A stretch of 64,000 nt of DNA from Kribbella aluminosa (GTDB lineage Bacteria; Actinomycetota; Actinomycetes; Propionibacteriales; Kribbellaceae). The notes under the pieces were generated by a model that made no database searches, was not told where the DNA came from, and saw only the letters and a list, made by a program, of their open reading frames with translations. Position 1 is the stretch's first letter; every line of letters starts with the position of its first letter. The translations under genes and the position numbers were made by a program. The stretch spans positions 2,108,001-2,172,000 of the forward strand of contig NZ_JAGINT010000002.1 of assembly GCF_017876295.1 (NCBI RefSeq). Direction: 5' to 3'. Below, piece after piece: positions 25,685 to 46,039 of the stretch.

Positions 25685-26587
25685 ATGCCGACCGCCGCAG
25701 TGCCGACAGAGCCGACCGGGGTATCCGTGGACCCCGCGGCACTGGCCGAACGCTACGGACTCTCCAAGAGCTCGATCCGCCCGCCGCTCGGCTCGTACCT
25801 GCGCGAGCTGTGGAGCCGTCGTAAGTTCGTCGTCAGTTACGCCACCGCACGCACCTACGCCATGTACGCCGGAGCCCGCCTGGGCTCGATCTGGCAGATC
25901 CTGACCCCGCTGCTGAACGCCGGGGTGTACTACCTCGCGTTCGGCGTCCTGCTCGGGACCAAGAACGGGATCAACAACTACGTGGCCTTCCTGCTCAGCG
26001 GGGTGTTCGTGTTCACGTTCACCCAGCGCTGCATGACCGAAGGGTCGCGTTCGCTGGCGCTGAACCTGTCGCTGATCCGCACCCTGCACTTCCCGCGCGC
26101 CACACTGCCGTTGGCCTACGTGCTGAACGAGCTGAACCAGATGCTCATCTCGCTGGGCCTGCTGTTCCTGGTCGTCGGCTTCACCGACGGGCCCGCGTGG
26201 CGCTGGCTGCTGGTGGTGCCGGCGATGCTGTTGCAGGTGATGTTCAACATCGGCATCACCCTGGTCTTCGCGCGGATCGGAACGTTCGTGACCGACATCA
26301 GCCAGCTGCTGCCGTTCATCACCCGCACCTGGCTGTACGCGTCCGGGATCTTCTTCTCGCTGCCGTACAAGCTGTCCCAGCTGCACGCCCCGGGCTGGGT
26401 GGTCCAGGTACTGGCGTTCAACCCGATCTCGGCGTACATCGACATCGTCCGGCGTTCGTTGCTCACCGAGCACCAGAAGAACCAGCTGCCGTACGCGTGG
26501 ACGATCGCGGTCGTCTGGGCGTTCGTGATGCTGGCCGGCGGACTCTGGTACTTCTGGCGGGCGGAGGACCGTTATGGGCGTGGCTGA
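25685..26587 (+). CDS. ABC-2 permease for polysaccharide/teichoic-acid export
   Basis: A 300-aa membrane protein with about six helices, similar in layout to TagG/Wzm/RfbA permeases (LGSIWQILTPLLNAGVYYLAFGVLLG, FLLSGVFVFTFTQRCM, FNPISAYIDIVRRSLL). It would move lipid-linked wall glycopolymer across the membrane with the ATPase encoded next, whose start overlaps this gene by 14 bases. A glycosyltransferase and an LCP transferase lie 2 kb away, which supports a wall-polymer role. The exact polymer is unknown. Confidence 0.9.
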   Translation: MPTAAVPTEPTGVSVDPAALAERYGLSKSSIRPPLGSYLRELWSRRKFVVSYATARTYAMYAGARLGSIWQILTPLLNAGVYYLAFGVLLGTKNGINNYVAFLLSGVFVFTFTQRCMTEGSRSLALNLSLIRTLHFPRATLPLAYVLNELNQMLISLGLLFLVVGFTDGPAWRWLLVVPAMLLQVMFNIGITLVFARIGTFVTDISQLLPFITRTWLYASGIFFSLPYKLSQLHAPGWVVQVLAFNPISAYIDIVRRSLLTEHQKNQLPYAWTIAVVWAFVMLAGGLWYFWRAEDRYGRG

Positions 26588-27356
26588 TTCGGTGGCTGGT
26601 TCAGGGGTTGAACCGACGGTCATCGCGGACCGCTTGGACATCATCTACAAGGTGATCGCCGGCCAGGGCGGCAAGGGTACGGCGGCGACCGCGCTGCGGC
26701 GGATCGTCAACCGCCAGGACCGGCCGACGATCCGCGAGGTGCACGCGGTCAGGAACGTCAGCTTCACCGCCTACAAGGGCGACGCGATCGGCGTCATCGG
26801 CCGCAATGGCTCCGGCAAGTCGACGATGCTGCGCGCGATCGCCGGCCTGCTGCCGCCGGTGTCCGGCGCCGTCTACACCGGCGGCCGCCCGTCGCTGCTC
26901 GGCGTCAACGCGGCGATGATGAACGACCTCACCGGCGAACGGAACGTCGTCCTCGGCTGTCTCGCGATGGGCATGTCCCCGGCCGAGACCCAGCGCCGGT
27001 ACGCCGAGATCGTCGACTTCTCCGGGATCGGCGACTTCATCGACCTGCCGATGTCGACGTACTCGACCGGCATGCAGGCCCGGCTGAAGTTCGCGATCGC
27101 GTCCGCGAAGACGCACGACATCCTGCTCGTCGACGAGGCGCTGGCGACCGGTGACGCCGAGTTCCGGGTCCGGTCGGAGCGCAAGATCAAGGACCTCCGC
27201 GACCAGGCCGGCACCGTGTTCCTGGTCAGCCACAGCCTGGACGTGGTGCAGGAGACCTGCAACCGCGCCCTGTGGCTGGACGCCGGCGTACTGAAACTCG
27301 ACGGCCCGGTCGACGAGGTCATCGCCGCCTACATCCGCTCCACCCGGGCAGGCTAG
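26574..27356 (+). CDS. ABC ATPase for polysaccharide/teichoic-acid export
   Basis: A 260-aa ATPase of the TagH/Wzt/RfbB type. Walker A is GRNGSGKST (76-84), the signature is YSTGMQARLKFAIA, Walker B is ILLVDEALATGD and the switch His is in VSHSLD. It has no C-terminal glycan-recognition extension of the long Wzt type. It is the partner of the permease that overlaps it. Confidence 0.92.
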   Translation: MGVADSVAGSGVEPTVIADRLDIIYKVIAGQGGKGTAATALRRIVNRQDRPTIREVHAVRNVSFTAYKGDAIGVIGRNGSGKSTMLRAIAGLLPPVSGAVYTGGRPSLLGVNAAMMNDLTGERNVVLGCLAMGMSPAETQRRYAEIVDFSGIGDFIDLPMSTYSTGMQARLKFAIASAKTHDILLVDEALATGDAEFRVRSERKIKDLRDQAGTVFLVSHSLDVVQETCNRALWLDAGVLKLDGPVDEVIAAYIRSTRAG

Positions 27357-27373
27357 CGCGGTCGCACACCAGT

Positions 27374-27443
27374 GGATATCCACTGGTGTTGGGGGTTCTC
27401 CACCGGTACTGGAGTGAAGAACCCCCACTGCGAAGGGATATCC
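27374..27443 (+). repeat. 70-bp hairpin repeat, copy 1
   Basis: An imperfect palindrome that begins and ends with GGATATCC. Inner arms are GGGGGTTCT and AGAACCCCC, with an asymmetric centre (GGTTCTCC ... GAAGAACC) that gives it a direction. By hand alignment about 53 of 70 bases match copy 2 read in the reverse direction. It lies 73 bp before the AbiEi-like gene. Confidence 0.88.
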
Positions 27444-27516
27444 ACTCGCGAGGAAGTTGTCCACAGATGCCTGGTCGGGGGCCTCCGGCGCTGGCTGTTC
27501 GTTGGATGCTTGATGG

Positions 27517-28464
27517 GTGAACCAGCGGCTCAGACTCATCGCGCAGCAACAAGGTGGCGTCTTCAGCCGTCGCCAGGCCCTTGCCAGTGGATGCACCCAC
27601 GAGCAGATCGTCCGCTGCCTGCGGGACGGTAGCTGGGAACAGGTCCGACGCGGTCAGTACGCCGAGATGCTTGACCTGACGGGTCTGCCGCCGTGGGAAC
27701 GCGCCCGTCTGCTGCACCTCCGGCAGGTGCATGCGGTGGTGAACGCGATGCGCCCGCGCTCCGTCGCCGTCAGCCATCAGTCGGCGCTGGTCCTGCACGG
27801 TCTGCCGATCTGGGGCCTCGACCTGAGCCGCGTGCACGTCACCCGGGTTGACGGACGGTCCGGTGGTGTCGTCGCCGGCGTACAGCATCACCTCGGAGTG
27901 CTGACCGACGCCGACCTGAGCGTCGTCAACGGCCTCCTCGTGACCAGCATGGCGCGGGCGACCCTCGAATCCGCTTGTACGACGTCGTTCGAGGTGGGGG
28001 TGGTCGGGGTTGACGCTGCGCTGCGCGCCGGCTGCCTCGGGGAGGACGAGGTACGGCGTCTGCGGTGCGCGACGGCGTTCTGGCCCGGATCCGCCGCAGC
28101 CCGGAAAGCGCTGCTGTTCGGGAACGGACTGTCCGAGTCGGTCGGTGAGTCACGGCTCCGGGTGCTGATGTACGAGCATGGCCTGCCGCGACCCCGGCTG
28201 CAGACGGAGTACTACGACCGTCTCGGCCTCATCGCCCGGGTCGACTTCGACTTCGACGGGTACGAGACGGTGGTCGAGTTCGACGGGGCGCTGAAGTACG
28301 GCGGCGGGTCACCCGAGGTCCTGATCCGGGAGAAGCGCCGCGAGGACCGCCTCCGCGCCCGCGGCCTGTCCGTGATCCGCACCGACTGGTCCGACTTCGA
28401 TCATCCCGCCGAGCTCGCCGCCGGCATGTTCCGAGTCCTGAACCGCTACCGCCGCCCCGCCTGA
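27517..28464 (+). CDS. AbiEi-like winged-helix protein with C-terminal DUF559/Vsr-type nuclease domain
   Basis: A 315-aa protein. The first 50 residues match the AbiEi antitoxin N-terminal helix-turn-helix (LIAQQQGGVFSRRQALASGCTHEQIVRCLRDGSWEQVRRGQY). The middle resembles the AbiEi family (SVAVSHQSALVLHGLPIW). The last 90 residues resemble the DUF559/Vsr-like PD-(D/E)XK fold: ARVDFDFDGYETVVEFDG and later REKRREDRLRARGLSVIRTDWSDF. Such genes are common in actinobacteria and their role is not settled. No AbiEii-type toxin is adjacent. It is bracketed by two inverted copies of the hairpin repeat and sits alone between wall-polymer genes, which looks like an inserted module. GTG start. Confidence 0.8.
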   Translation: MNQRLRLIAQQQGGVFSRRQALASGCTHEQIVRCLRDGSWEQVRRGQYAEMLDLTGLPPWERARLLHLRQVHAVVNAMRPRSVAVSHQSALVLHGLPIWGLDLSRVHVTRVDGRSGGVVAGVQHHLGVLTDADLSVVNGLLVTSMARATLESACTTSFEVGVVGVDAALRAGCLGEDEVRRLRCATAFWPGSAAARKALLFGNGLSESVGESRLRVLMYEHGLPRPRLQTEYYDRLGLIARVDFDFDGYETVVEFDGALKYGGGSPEVLIREKRREDRLRARGLSVIRTDWSDFDHPAELAAGMFRVLNRYRRPA

Positions 28465-28486
28465 CCGCCACCCCAGCCGGGTCGCT

Positions 28487-28556
28487 GGATATCCACCCGC
28501 GTTGGGGGTTCTTCCATCGCATACCAGCGGAGAACCCTCAACACGAACGGATAACC
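28487..28556 (-). repeat. 70-bp hairpin repeat, copy 2 (inverted)
   Basis: The same element as copy 1 at exactly the same length, but with its asymmetric centre pointing the other way. It starts GGATATCC and ends GGATAACC on the plus strand. It lies 22 bp after the AbiEi-like gene, so the gene is flanked by inverted copies. Confidence 0.88.
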
Positions 28557-28577
28557 ACTCGGTTGGGAACCGGTGGG

Positions 28578-29582
28578 TCAGACGGCCTTCGGGCGTTCGG
28601 GGAGGCCGACCAGGAAGCCGAGGCCCCAGGAGACGTGCATGGTCGCGCAGACCAGCGGCATCCAGAACAGCGCCTTCCAGGGCAGGTAGCGGCCTTCCAT
28701 CGCGGAGCCGAAGATCAGCAGCAGGGCATAGCCCAGCGGGGCCAGGAAGCCGATGTCGAGCCAGCTGACACCGGTGGCCAGGCCGATGATCCCCAGGATC
28801 GTGCCGACGGCCAGGCCGATGACCGCGACCGGCGGTGCCAGGTACCGCTTGCTGGCGGTCTCCGGGTGCCGGCGGATCACCTCGCGGCGCCACTGGCCGG
28901 TGTGGAAGAACTGCTTCGCGACCGCGGACAGCGAGGACCGCGGCCGGTACGTCACCGAAAGGTCCGGGCTGAACCAGATCAGCCCGCCGGTCTTCCGGAT
29001 CCGGTAGTTCAGCTCCCAGTCCTGGGCCCGGTGCATGGTCTCGTCGAAGCCGCCGACCCGCTCCAGCGCGGCCCGCCGGAACACGCCGAGGTACACCGTG
29101 TCCGCGGGGCCGGCCGTGCCGCCCTGATGGAACGTCGAGGCACCCAGACCGAGCCGGGAACGGTACGCGCAGGCGACCGCCATCTCGGTCGGGGTCCGAC
29201 CCTCGGCCGCCATCACGCCGCCGACGTTGTCCGCGCCGCTCTCGTCCAGCACCTCGACCGCGCGGGTGATGTACCCGTCGGTGAGCGCGCCGTGCCCGTC
29301 CACCCGGACCAGGATGTCGTGCTTGGCGTGCGCGATCCCGACGTTCAGCGCGGCCGGCGTCTTGCCGGTCGGGTTCGGCACGATGCTGATCCGGTGGTCC
29401 TTCTCGGCCAGCTTGTCCGCGATCTCCTCGGTCCGGTCCTTGCCCGGGCCGATCGCGAGGACGACTTCGAGCTCACCCGGATAGTCCTGGTCGAGGACGC
29501 GGCCGACCGCCTCCTCCAGGTGACGTTCCTCGTTCAGCACGGGCATCACGACGGACACGGGCGGCCAGTGGGACAGCGGCAT
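28578..29582 (-). CDS. Family 2 glycosyltransferase with C-terminal membrane helices
   Basis: A 334-aa enzyme. The GT-A nucleotide-sugar domain fills residues 8-225 (VSVVMPVLNEERHLEEAV, DHRISIVPNPTGKTPAALNVGIAHA, the DGHG metal site, and AQDWELNYRIRKTGG). Two to three hydrophobic segments follow (about residues 250-320), placing the active site at the inner membrane face. It lies six bases after the LCP gene and is co-transcribed with it. With the nearby exporter it probably builds a wall glycopolymer; the sugar is unknown. Confidence 0.9.
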   Translation of the reverse strand: MPLSHWPPVSVVMPVLNEERHLEEAVGRVLDQDYPGELEVVLAIGPGKDRTEEIADKLAEKDHRISIVPNPTGKTPAALNVGIAHAKHDILVRVDGHGALTDGYITRAVEVLDESGADNVGGVMAAEGRTPTEMAVACAYRSRLGLGASTFHQGGTAGPADTVYLGVFRRAALERVGGFDETMHRAQDWELNYRIRKTGGLIWFSPDLSVTYRPRSSLSAVAKQFFHTGQWRREVIRRHPETASKRYLAPPVAVIGLAVGTILGIIGLATGVSWLDIGFLAPLGYALLLIFGSAMEGRYLPWKALFWMPLVCATMHVSWGLGFLVGLPERPKAV

Positions 29583-29588
29583 ATCAGG

Positions 29589-31082
29589 TCAGGCCTTACA
29601 GATCGAGGCGACGTCGTCGACGCCGTTGGCGGGTGGTGTGGTCGTTGAGCTTGTCGGCTTCTTGCTCGGTTTCTTCGTGGTGCTGGTGCTCGGGGCGCTG
29701 CTGGACCTCCCCGCGGTGCTACGCGGAGTGGTCGAGGTCTTACCGTCTCCTCCCGAGCCGTCGTTGTCCAGCGATTCGGACTTGGCGATCGCCTCCGCGA
29801 CCTTGGTCCGGATCAGTGCGAAGTCCGGGTCGCTGCCCTTGATCAACGGCGGAACCGCGGAGAAGCTTGACACCGGTAGCTTCTTCGCGTCCAGTGCGAG
29901 GTCCGTGAAGGTGCCCAGTTCGCCGGCGGGGATGTTCGTCTGGACCACTTCCTTGCTGGCCGACGCGATGCCCTGGAACTTGGTCAGCACGACCTGCGGC
30001 GACAACTGGTTGAGCATCGCCGAGATCACGCACTTCTGCCGTGCCATCCGTGCGTAGTCCGACGAGTCGGCGCGGGACCGGGCGAACCAGAGCGCGTGGT
30101 ACCCGTCCAGATGGACGTTCTTGCCGGGTTCGATGTAGCCCTTGATCGGTGTGCTCTCGCCGCCGATCGGTACCCGCACACTGATGTCCAGGGTGATCCC
30201 GCCGACGGCGTTGATCAGGTCGCGGAAGCCCGTCAGGTCGATCAGCGCGTAGTAGTTGAGCTTCAGCCCGGTGGTCGCCTGGATGGCCTGGCTGGTCGCG
30301 GTCACGCCGGGATGCGGGTCGCCCGGGAACAGCTGCTTGTGATCGGTCGCCCAGGTGAACACGCCGTTCAGCCAGCAGTTCGGGGTGCAGCCCTTCCACT
30401 GGAAGCCCTGCGGGAACTGCTTGGCCATCGCCGTACCCTCCGGGAACGGCACCTTGGAGAGGTTCCGCGGTACCCCGATCAGCACGGTCCGGCCGGTGTT
30501 CGCGTCGATGCTCGCGATCGTCATGCTGTCCGGCCGGGTGCCGACGCGGTCCGCACCCGAGTCGCCTCCGAGCAGCAGCACGTTGTAGCGGCCCTTGTCG
30601 GCCTTCGAGGACTTGCCGCTGCCGAACACGCTGGCGACGAAGTCGCGCTGGGTGTTCACGATCACGCTCGCGTAGATCAGCGCCCCGACCACGACGAAGA
30701 TCAGCGCGCCGTCGAGGATGCTGGTGATCAGCCGGTGGTTGCGCTCCAGCGTCAGCGGCTGGCTGATCCGGTACGCGTCCACGAACAGCGCCGCCCAGCC
30801 GAGGGCGAGCACGATCAGCAGGATCTGCACCAGCCGGAGAGTGCTGGGCCGGGCCAGGATGTTGATCGTCCCGGAGCGCCAGATCAGGCCCAGGACGACG
30901 AAGAAGACGATGATCGCGATCAGCCCGGCGACCACCCGCCAGGCCCAGCGGCCGGCCGTCCTGGAGCCCGCGACGATCTGGGCCGATCCCGGCAGGATCA
31001 GCGTCATCAACAGCAGTGTCAGTGCCCGCTTGAACCGGACCGGCTCGCGGAGACTGCGCAGGTCTGGCTTCTCCTGCGGCAT
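29589..31082 (-). CDS. LytR-CpsA-Psr (LCP) family glycopolymer transferase
   Basis: A 497-aa membrane protein. Four hydrophobic segments come first (about residues 20-40, 48-70, 84-105, 123-145), more than the single helix of classical LCP proteins. The LCP domain follows from about residue 165 (YNVLLLGGDSGADRVGTRPDSMTIASID, IGVPRNLSKVPFP, NYYALIDLTGFRDLINAVGGI, LDGYHALWFARSRADSSDYARMARQ). The conserved Arg and Asp residues for pyrophosphate binding are there. LCP enzymes attach teichoic acids, capsule or arabinogalactan to peptidoglycan. A Ser/Thr/Lys tail ends the protein. ATG 31082 has GGGAAGGA upstream. Confidence 0.92.
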   Translation of the reverse strand: MPQEKPDLRSLREPVRFKRALTLLLMTLILPGSAQIVAGSRTAGRWAWRVVAGLIAIIVFFVVLGLIWRSGTINILARPSTLRLVQILLIVLALGWAALFVDAYRISQPLTLERNHRLITSILDGALIFVVVGALIYASVIVNTQRDFVASVFGSGKSSKADKGRYNVLLLGGDSGADRVGTRPDSMTIASIDANTGRTVLIGVPRNLSKVPFPEGTAMAKQFPQGFQWKGCTPNCWLNGVFTWATDHKQLFPGDPHPGVTATSQAIQATTGLKLNYYALIDLTGFRDLINAVGGITLDISVRVPIGGESTPIKGYIEPGKNVHLDGYHALWFARSRADSSDYARMARQKCVISAMLNQLSPQVVLTKFQGIASASKEVVQTNIPAGELGTFTDLALDAKKLPVSSFSAVPPLIKGSDPDFALIRTKVAEAIAKSESLDNDGSGGDGKTSTTPRSTAGRSSSAPSTSTTKKPSKKPTSSTTTPPANGVDDVASICKA

Positions 31083-43946: not shown

Positions 43947-44488
43947 GGCTCTTCTGCTCGATGTGTGGGTGGTGGTTGTCCTGATTCGGGGTCGTGAGAC
44001 AGGTTGTGGTGGGTGGAGACCTGGTATTGCCTGTCTCCTGCCACCAGTGCCTGTTCCCGGTCTCCACCGTCGCCCCGCAGTTGCTGCACACCCCGCCACG
44101 GGATTCCCCACTGCCGGAACGCGGCGCGGCGCAGCCCTCCCCGGCAGGGGGCCGTCGACTCGGGCCGCGCCCTGCCGTACACGCTCGCACCAGCAGGACC
44201 TGTGGCGTGACGGCGGGGTTTGACAGGGGGTTGCCCGCCGCATCACCGGGGTTGCCCCGTCGTTTGGAGGGTTGCCTGCTCAGATTTTGAGGGGGCAACC
44301 CTCCCGTTGAGCGGGCAACCCCGCCGCGAGACCGGCGAAGCCGCGGCTGGTGGCCGGGATGGTGGATGGTGGAGGGTTTTCTGGGATAGCGCCGGACAGC
44401 CTCCACCGATGTGCTGGAAGTCTCCACCCAAGCGTGAATCAGGCCGGCGAGCGGAGCCGACGGACGGTGGACCGGGCGAGCCATCCGG
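43947..44488. other. Non-coding block with interleaved inverted repeats
   Basis: No convincing gene lies here. GAGACAGG (43996) pairs with CCTGTCTC (44030), and GGTGGAGACC (44012) pairs with GGTCTCCACC (44059); the two pairs interleave. Further on, GGGGTTGCCCGC (44227) pairs with GCGGGCAACCCC (44311) around a second perfect pair. The block could be an unrecognised repeat element or a structured RNA. Confidence 0.55.
44227..44322. repeat. Nested inverted repeat with GGGTTGCC arms
   Basis: The outer arms are 12 bp and exact. The inner arms start GGAGGGTTGCC and end GGCAACCCTCC (44266-44304) with a short AT-rich loop. An additional GGGGTTGCCCC lies between the left arms. The whole could fold into a branched hairpin. 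Confidence 0.65.
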
Positions 44489-44496
44489 TTCGACCC
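44489..44496 (+). repeat. Target-site duplication, left copy
   Basis: TTCGACCC directly abuts the left end of the insertion sequence and recurs at the right end (45917-45924). Confidence 0.8.
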
Positions 44497-45916
44497 AGTT
44501 GCGTCCCGCAGAGTGGTGTACGACGTGGTGGTGGCCGGCCCGGGTGTGGACGTGGGTGCGGTCACCGCGTGATTCTTCGAGGAATCTCTCACAACCCACT
44601 CGAAGAGAAGAGCACAGCGATGACCGCATCACCCAGTATCGACCCTGCCGAGTTCTTGCACGAGCACCTGCAGCAGGCCAGTCCTGATCTGCTGCGCGAG
44701 CTGATGGAAGGCTTCGTGAACACGTTGCTGTCGGCCGATGCCGACAGCGTGTGCGGCGCCTCGTACGGAACCCGCGACCCCGAACGAGTGAACTCTCGCA
44801 ACGGCTACCGCCATCGCGAGCTGGACACGAGGATCGGGACGCTGGATGTCGCGGTCCCGAAACTGCGCGAAGGAACCTATTTTCCCGACTGGCTGCTCGA
44901 GCGGCGCCGGCGTGCCGAAGCCGCGCTGACCAGTGTGGTGGCGACCTGTTATCTGCTTGGGGTGTCGACTCGGCGGATGGACCGGCTGGTGCAGTCGCTC
45001 GGTATCACGGGCCTGTCCAGGTCGCAGGTGTCGGTGATGGCCAGGGACCTCGACGAGCTGGTCCGCGACTTCCGCGAACGACCGTTGAACGAAGGGCCTC
45101 ACACGTTCGTGGCGGCGGACGCGTTGACGATGCGAGTCCGCGAAGGTGGCCGGGTGATCAAGATCGCGGTCATGGTGGCCACCGGCGTGAACGCGGACGG
45201 GTTCCGCGAAATCCTCGGCGTCTCCACCAGTACCGCCGAGTCCGGGGCCGGCTGGAACTCGTTCTTCAAAGACCTGGTCGCCCGCGGCCTCAACGGCGTC
45301 GCACTCGTCACCAGCGACGCCCATGCGGGGCTGGTCGACGCGATCGGTGCGAACCTGCCCGGCGCATCCTGGCAACGCTGCAGAACCCACTACACCGCCA
45401 ACCTGATGGCGATCTGCCCCAAACACGCCTGGGGAGGCGTGAAAGCGATGCTGCACTCGGTGTTCGACCAAATCGACACCACCGCCGTCCACGCCCAGTA
45501 CGACAAACTCCTCGACCAGACCGAAACCACCCTGCCGGCCGTCCACGCCCACCTCGACGACGCCCGCGGCGAAGTACTCGCGTTCACCACGTTCCCCCGC
45601 GACGTCTGGCGACAGATCTGGTCCAACAACCCCAACGAACGCCTCAACCGCGAAATCCGGCGCCGCACCGACGTCGTCGGCATCTTCCCCGACCGCGGCT
45701 CCATCATCCGACTCGTCGGCGCCGTCCTGGCCGAACAACACGACGAATGGGCCGACGGACGCCGCTACCTCGGCCTCGAAGTCCTCCACCGCAGCCGACT
45801 CACCCTCATCACCAACCCCGACCAGACCACCACAACCACCATCGCCAGCGCCATCAGCGCCTAACCAGACAACGACGAATCACAAACCGTCGTACACCAC
45901 TCCACGGGACTTGACC
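44497..45916 (+). mobile_element. IS256-family insertion sequence, apparently intact
   Basis: The element is 1,420 bp. Its ends are imperfect inverted repeats of 29 bp with 23 matches by hand count, sharing GTCCCG and GAGTGGTGTACGACG. An 8-bp direct repeat (TTCGACCC) flanks both ends exactly, the size expected for IS256 transposition. One full-length transposase gene fills the interior. The matched target duplication and intact gene point to a fairly recent insertion. Confidence 0.88.
44620..45864 (+). CDS. IS256-family DDE transposase
   Basis: A 414-aa transposase of the usual length. The catalytic triad regions are visible: first Asp in VAADALTMRVREGGRV, second in VTSDAHAGLVDAI, and the Glu in NPNERLNREIRRRTDVVGIFPDRGSIIRL. 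The helical insertion between second Asp and Glu carries CRTHYTANLM. ATG 44620 follows GAAGAGAAG and the conserved N-terminus. The enzyme would move the element by copy-out/paste-in via a circle. Confidence 0.95.
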   Translation: MTASPSIDPAEFLHEHLQQASPDLLRELMEGFVNTLLSADADSVCGASYGTRDPERVNSRNGYRHRELDTRIGTLDVAVPKLREGTYFPDWLLERRRRAEAALTSVVATCYLLGVSTRRMDRLVQSLGITGLSRSQVSVMARDLDELVRDFRERPLNEGPHTFVAADALTMRVREGGRVIKIAVMVATGVNADGFREILGVSTSTAESGAGWNSFFKDLVARGLNGVALVTSDAHAGLVDAIGANLPGASWQRCRTHYTANLMAICPKHAWGGVKAMLHSVFDQIDTTAVHAQYDKLLDQTETTLPAVHAHLDDARGEVLAFTTFPRDVWRQIWSNNPNERLNREIRRRTDVVGIFPDRGSIIRLVGAVLAEQHDEWADGRRYLGLEVLHRSRLTLITNPDQTTTTTIASAISA

Positions 45917-45970: not shown

Positions 45971-46039
45971 GGATATCGGCTCGTGCTGGGGGTTCTCCGG
46001 CGGTGCGCTGGCGAAGAACCCCAACGCGAGCGGATAGCC
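45971..46039 (+). repeat. Hairpin repeat, copy 3
   Basis: A 69-bp relative of the repeats at 27374 and 28487, in the orientation of copy 1. It starts GGATATCG, has GGGGGTTCTCC and GAAGAACCCC arms, and ends GGATAGCC. It lies 47 bp after the insertion sequence and contains the first possible start codon of the toxin-like frame. Confidence 0.82.

Follow-up and report, generated by a model that had tools for sequence, protein, structure and literature searches.

The window, a 64-kb (64,000-nucleotide) stretch of the 8.94-Mb genome G000, holds a gene for a two-part AbiEi-Vsr nuclease, and on either side of this gene stands a copy of its own palindromic unit, the one inverted relative to the other. 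With a probability of roughly 0.6, this gene and the copies of the unit that are spread through the genome constitute a REP/RAYT-like system. The initial annotation had proposed a mobile or addiction-type module, by analogy with REP palindromes and RAYT transposases, and the first half of that proposal is now strongly supported: family-wide bracketing by gene-specific hairpins, coevolution of hairpin and protein, solitary hairpins (solos) that track the gene and insertions at sites that are empty in relatives together reproduce the REP/RAYT anatomy. The addiction half finds no support, as no partner gene is seen and the gene has decayed or been lost in G016, G030 and G017 while the hairpins remain.

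The entire inserted interval spans 27357-28577, from the stop codon of an ABC-transporter gene (27354-27356) to that of a convergent glycosyltransferase gene (28578-28580). The left hairpin unit, on the forward strand, has a 70-bp core at 27374-27443 (27371-27446 as the 76-bp unit of the covariance model R1, below), and the right unit, on the reverse strand and inverted relative to the left, occupies 28487-28556. The gene for the 315-residue protein (27517-28464, forward strand) begins 73 bp after the first hairpin and ends 22 bp before the second. Both the paired imperfect palindromes of 70 bp and their spacing are as initially annotated, and so is their identity of 53/70 with one hairpin reversed; in direct orientation identity is 49/70, and 20,000 shuffled copies reach a mean of 18/70 and a maximum of 32/70. 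The hairpin ends are palindromic, as had also been claimed, but the palindrome at the left outer end of the element proves longer in a repeat search, a perfect 24 bp (ACACCAGTGGATATCCACTGGTGT, 27366-27389). No dinucleotide shuffle out of 200 folds as stably as either hairpin (z -4.0 and -3.4), and chance palindromes are ruled out by the shuffles together with the control flanks described below. A known RNA element is likewise ruled out, an Rfam search of 26500-29600 having given no match, and a search for intrinsic terminators by T-tract pattern, a weak test in GC-rich actinobacteria, found none. Stop codons lie within the 8-nt end palindromes of hairpins (GGATAACC, GGTTAGCC, GGCTGACC), and in several insertions (L038, L092, L093, L096) it is these that now terminate the neighbouring gene or the nuclease gene.

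The two-part architecture first read from the translated gene is upheld by profile and structural comparison. In the predicted structure (pLDDT 90.9), residues 1-203 form an AbiEi-like DNA-binding half, with a Z of 11.8 to the antitoxin AbiEi (6y8q) and of 9.3 to Rv2827c of M. tuberculosis. Residues 205-313 form a predicted Vsr-fold PD-(D/E)XK nuclease (E211, D243, E254, D256) with matches to the homing endonuclease I-Bth0305I (3r3p, Z 12.9), NGO0050 (12.2) and Vsr (11.2), and a weaker one to TnsA (Z 7.0). Pfam detects AbiEi_4 (E 1.4e-8) and a weak DUF559, with no Y1 transposase; an NCBIfam search gave no match. The acidic motif is conserved across 176 family proteins, with E211 present in 176/176, E254 in 175/176 and D243 and D256 each in 170/176. 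Values of dN/dS between orthologues range from 0.10 to 0.34, and the gene is therefore under purifying selection, despite its quick divergence.

Hairpin bracketing is a general property of the family. Ten recognisable matches to the protein, itself included, are encoded in G000, and each genus relative has one to nine closer ones. Among 38 genomes of the genus, about 80 of these loci were extracted and oriented, and hairpin presence was scored in the 260-nt flanks of 78 family genes. A strong hairpin is found upstream in 68% and downstream in 54% of these, compared with 3% in segments drawn at random from the window and 2% in the outer flanks of these loci, so that an inverted pair around an AbiEi/DUF559 gene, first noticed at this single locus, is the majority plan among relatives. 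The hairpins vary from gene to gene, yet they match within each gene: median upstream-downstream similarity is 44 within a gene's own pair versus 14 between elements, and the partner hairpin ranks in the top three for 36/40. Paralogues in the same genome can have quite different pairs, as do L017 and the 28%-identical L022. The latter, in the window's genome, carries its own pair of ~90-bp hairpins (CGGACCGCCAGGCCATCACAAT...; L022 positions 1197-1287 and 2175-2269), the right one overlapping the end of the gene.

Matched end repeats extend to other genera, where 57 of 76 loci lie beyond the 99th percentile for mismatched pairs, with the inverted orientation the better fit in 64 of 76. These loci come mostly from Nocardioides, with others from Jiangella, Pseudonocardia and Rhodococcus, and their ends typically consist of a short perfect palindrome plus an inner hairpin, in mirrored order. 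At some single loci in Blastococcus, Geodermatophilaceae and Nocardia, a clear hairpin pair was not seen. Genes of this small nuclease occur across soil actinobacteria. Hairpin arms repeated in tandem (CAATTTGGCTGGCTGACCCAC and GTTAGCCCACTGTTCTGGGG) adjoin the elements at L261, L263 (crp site) and L053 and resemble the BIME clusters of REP systems.

The relation between hairpin and protein is independent of genomic position. The genus has about 52 hairpin-bearing elements at no more than seven sites. Of these elements, 25 lie at the crp/MBL-hydrolase junction, 12 at a second site, 5 at the nadA/glycosyltransferase junction, 5 at a fourth site and 3 at the ABC-transporter/glycosyltransferase junction of the window; two further sites hold one element each. 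Where proteins at the same site are 55-60% identical, median hairpin similarity is 13, the background level; for proteins at least 80% identical, it reaches 64 where elements share a site and 45 where they do not. Since similarity tracks protein identity in both situations (Mantel permutation of hairpin similarity against protein identity, 0/999), the hairpin follows the protein and not the place. Within clade A, whose aligned units are 76 nt long (77 in two solo units), the hairpin arms covary, with 82% of cells paired versus 35-53% in slid structures and 17 of 30 base pairs changed on both sides. This covariation shows conservation of the palindrome as such, and would fit a single-stranded hairpin and a two-fold symmetric protein site alike.

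Copies of the hairpin without the gene were sought with covariance models of the clade-A hairpin (R1) and of its clade-D counterpart (R2), R1 matches being counted at E ≤ 1e-10 on both strands. Among the matches listed (at most 127 candidates per genome), R1 finds 84 in G022, 50 each in G007 and G012, 45 in G005, 40 in G030 and 9 in G000, with none in 16 genomes. Such a search across related genomes, which the initial annotation had suggested, thus yields tens of solitary copies in G022, and although the repeat is dispersed, it is so heavily enriched around the gene family that its distribution differs from the random scatter also envisaged there. At least three R1 matches are present in all 14 genomes whose clade-A gene is intact or decayed versus 3 of the 24 that lack it (Fisher 7e-8, kinship ignored), and the corresponding R2 figures for clade D are 7/7 versus 5/31 (6e-5, kinship ignored); shared ancestry is a partial confounder here. 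The two hairpin families dissociate, G007 and G030 having many R1 and no R2 matches and G014 and G029 showing nearly the reverse. Hairpins can last longer than the gene, as in G017, which has 21 R1 matches but only a gene remnant, at nadA. In G010, G015 and G018 hairpins persist where an intact cognate gene was not found.

There are more solo units than gene-bearing ones. Nearly all of twenty inspected in G022 are intergenic by simple ORF calls, and about half of their called neighbour pairs are convergent. One insertion is clean: G022 reads CTCT-GACC-[86 bp]-GACC-GAGG where G017 has CTCTGACCGGGG, giving a 4-bp GACC target duplication, the one clear case among the solo sites examined, the others being ambiguous. 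The window itself contains a solitary copy of the same family, overlooked in the initial annotation, at 45971-46039 on the forward strand. It adjoins an IS256-like transposase gene (44350-45864); a hairpin also stands at this site in G022 and G017, and between the flanks the window genome carries an additional ~4.4 kb.

Comparison of junctions reveals empty, filled and decayed states of the insertion. In nine relatives the site is empty: the stop codons of the ABC-transporter and glycosyltransferase genes overlap (GGCTAGACGG or GGTTAGACGG), and no sequence separates the two. The junction is filled as in the window in G002 and G007, relatives with an intact gene that both carry the two hairpins; G016 and G030 have decayed genes there, and G009 and G001 a solitary hairpin. 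The window element is an insertion at a junction of convergent genes; a candidate GGYTAG target duplication at the site is decayed. The crp and nadA junctions show comparable empty, filled and solo states, and the nadA site of G022 holds a closely related element whose protein is 84% identical to that of the window. Mapped onto the protein tree, these seven sites call for exactly six changes, which is the minimum possible, and gene-bearing elements therefore move rarely and are mostly inherited vertically. Several relatives hold unrelated extra sequence at the nadA/glycosyltransferase junction (L294-L298, L302, L305), which may for this reason be a general insertion hotspot.

A sequence resembling a DnaA box occupies a fixed position before the family genes. 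TTRTCCACA occurs upstream of 54 of 78, with 5th and 95th percentiles of position at -61 and -59, and its only match in the 64-kb window is TTGTCCACAG (27457-27466, forward strand), at -60 of the nuclease start codon. The DnaA-box consensus TTRTCCACAG was rejected as a family-specific motif: G000 has 101 copies, versus 6 of the reversed control, and the majority of 30 inspected copies precede unrelated genes. Only the fixed -60 position is special to the family, and the conserved box hints at a link to replication that is given little weight because so many copies lie elsewhere in the genome.

Confinement of about 52 elements to seven sites, several clades reusing the same ones, and the coexistence of empty and filled alleles might also be produced by a homing-endonuclease-like nuclease. 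Such an enzyme would cut empty alleles at a small number of preferred intergenic sites, gene and flanks being copied in by recombinational repair, and the hairpins would be secondary, for example as protective or recombination ends; the best match of the catalytic domain is indeed to a homing endonuclease (I-Bth0305I, Z 12.9). Homing is unlikely, however, to account for the system as a whole, as it predicts neither tens of gene-tracking solitary hairpins elsewhere nor tight hairpin-protein coevolution irrespective of site. Vertical inheritance explains site fidelity on the tree equally well, and the gene has no intron or intein host.

Lower again in probability is a regulatory or structural origin, in which selection would act on transcription and not on mobility, with the gene either encoding an AbiEi-like autoregulator whose operators are the palindromes or being insulated by two bidirectional terminators. 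It would be in keeping with autoregulation of AbiEi-type antitoxins through inverted-repeat binding (PMC7319586), with the placement of the element between convergent genes and with the intergenic, often convergent setting of the solo hairpins. Operators nevertheless leave the downstream copy and the dispersed copies unexplained, a terminator-like site was not found, and neither clade-specific sequence with compensatory change nor clean solo insertion is predicted. A further proposal, that an unrelated transposase mobilises the hairpins and the AbiEi-Vsr gene is a passenger between two copies, would suit the numerical excess of solos and the IS256-like gene beside the solo of the window. It is highly improbable when set against the possession by each gene clade, across several genera, of its own hairpin and the independent variation of two hairpin families between genomes, each according to its own gene.

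Under the REP/RAYT-like reading, the protein most likely recognises its own hairpins and cuts there, mobilising them in trans and only rarely moving its own gene. The AbiEi half would bind the end palindromes and the Vsr-fold nuclease would nick or cut at the ends of the unit, perhaps at the time of replication, when the palindrome could extrude as a hairpin. Repair or strand transfer would then place a copy of the unit at another position, in most cases alone and only seldom together with the gene. Weighing against this reading are the rarity with which the gene itself moves, the shared ancestry that partly confounds the link between gene and repeat, the hairpins that persist in G010, G015 and G018, and the fact that a single target duplication is clean. 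To our knowledge, no Vsr-fold enzyme transposes DNA alone, and the nuclease may need host repair to complete insertion. Whether the AbiEi-Vsr nuclease is itself the mobilising enzyme of widespread actinobacterial palindromic repeats, and thereby a new kind of transposition enzyme in a second, independently evolved REP/RAYT-type system, is evenly balanced. If it is, the REP/RAYT arrangement has evolved more than once, with unrelated enzymes, and a role is found for many actinobacterial genes whose present label is just 'AbiEi antitoxin' or DUF559. The spread of REP-like repeats, a long-open question, would become testable in a second system, and sequence recognition could be tested on a compact nuclease that comes with many natural pairs of protein and hairpin. 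No account of an AbiEi-Vsr hairpin system was found in the open-access literature on DUF559, AbiEi and palindromes.

The element shares parts with several known systems. Its N-terminal two thirds have the fold of the AbiE antitoxin AbiEi (6y8q, Z 11.8) and Rv2827c (Z 9.3), proteins that bind inverted repeats (PMC7319586). Unlike AbiE type IV toxin-antitoxin systems, it has a fused nuclease domain, and no AbiEii nucleotidyltransferase toxin gene lies beside it at the window site (ABC transporter, glycosyltransferase) or at the recurrent sites (crp/MBL hydrolase, nadA/glycosyltransferase). The catalytic fold (Z 12.9 to 3r3p) and acidic motif are those of I-Bth0305I and the Vsr-like (EDxHD) homing endonucleases, but here they belong to a free-standing intergenic gene, with no intron or intein, that adds an AbiEi-type DNA-binding half and has cognate palindromic units both flanking it and dispersed. 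It belongs with neither the AbiE toxin-antitoxin pairs nor the homing genes carried by introns. With MITEs it shares a short palindromic non-autonomous unit and one clean 4-bp target duplication, and with insertion sequences and MITEs alike the presence of terminal inverted repeats; it differs from MITEs in that the candidate parental gene encodes a Vsr-fold nuclease, a DDE parent transposon not having been identified.

The closest resemblance is to REP/RAYT, in which a gene is bracketed by two inverted palindromes that coevolve with it (Nunvar et al. 2010, PMC2817692). The AbiEi-Vsr gene is likewise flanked by two inverted copies of a palindrome with which its protein coevolves. The abundance of dispersed cognate palindromes correlates with presence of the RAYT gene (PMC2817692), and here too it tracks the cognate gene, kinship being ignored. 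RAYT genes evolve rapidly at a largely fixed position (PMC2817692), comparable to gene-bearing elements that rarely move and are mostly inherited. The enzyme, in contrast, combines AbiEi and Vsr folds in place of the HUH/Y1 tyrosine transposase related to IS200/IS605. REP sequences of 20-40 nt with a GTAG or CGTC head are replaced by units of 70-86 bp with GG-N-T-N-N-CC palindromic ends (76 or 79 nt in the models, with ends of the GGATATCC or GGCTGACC type). The system works like REP/RAYT without being a member: the arrangement is already known, and both molecular parts, enzyme and palindrome, are different.
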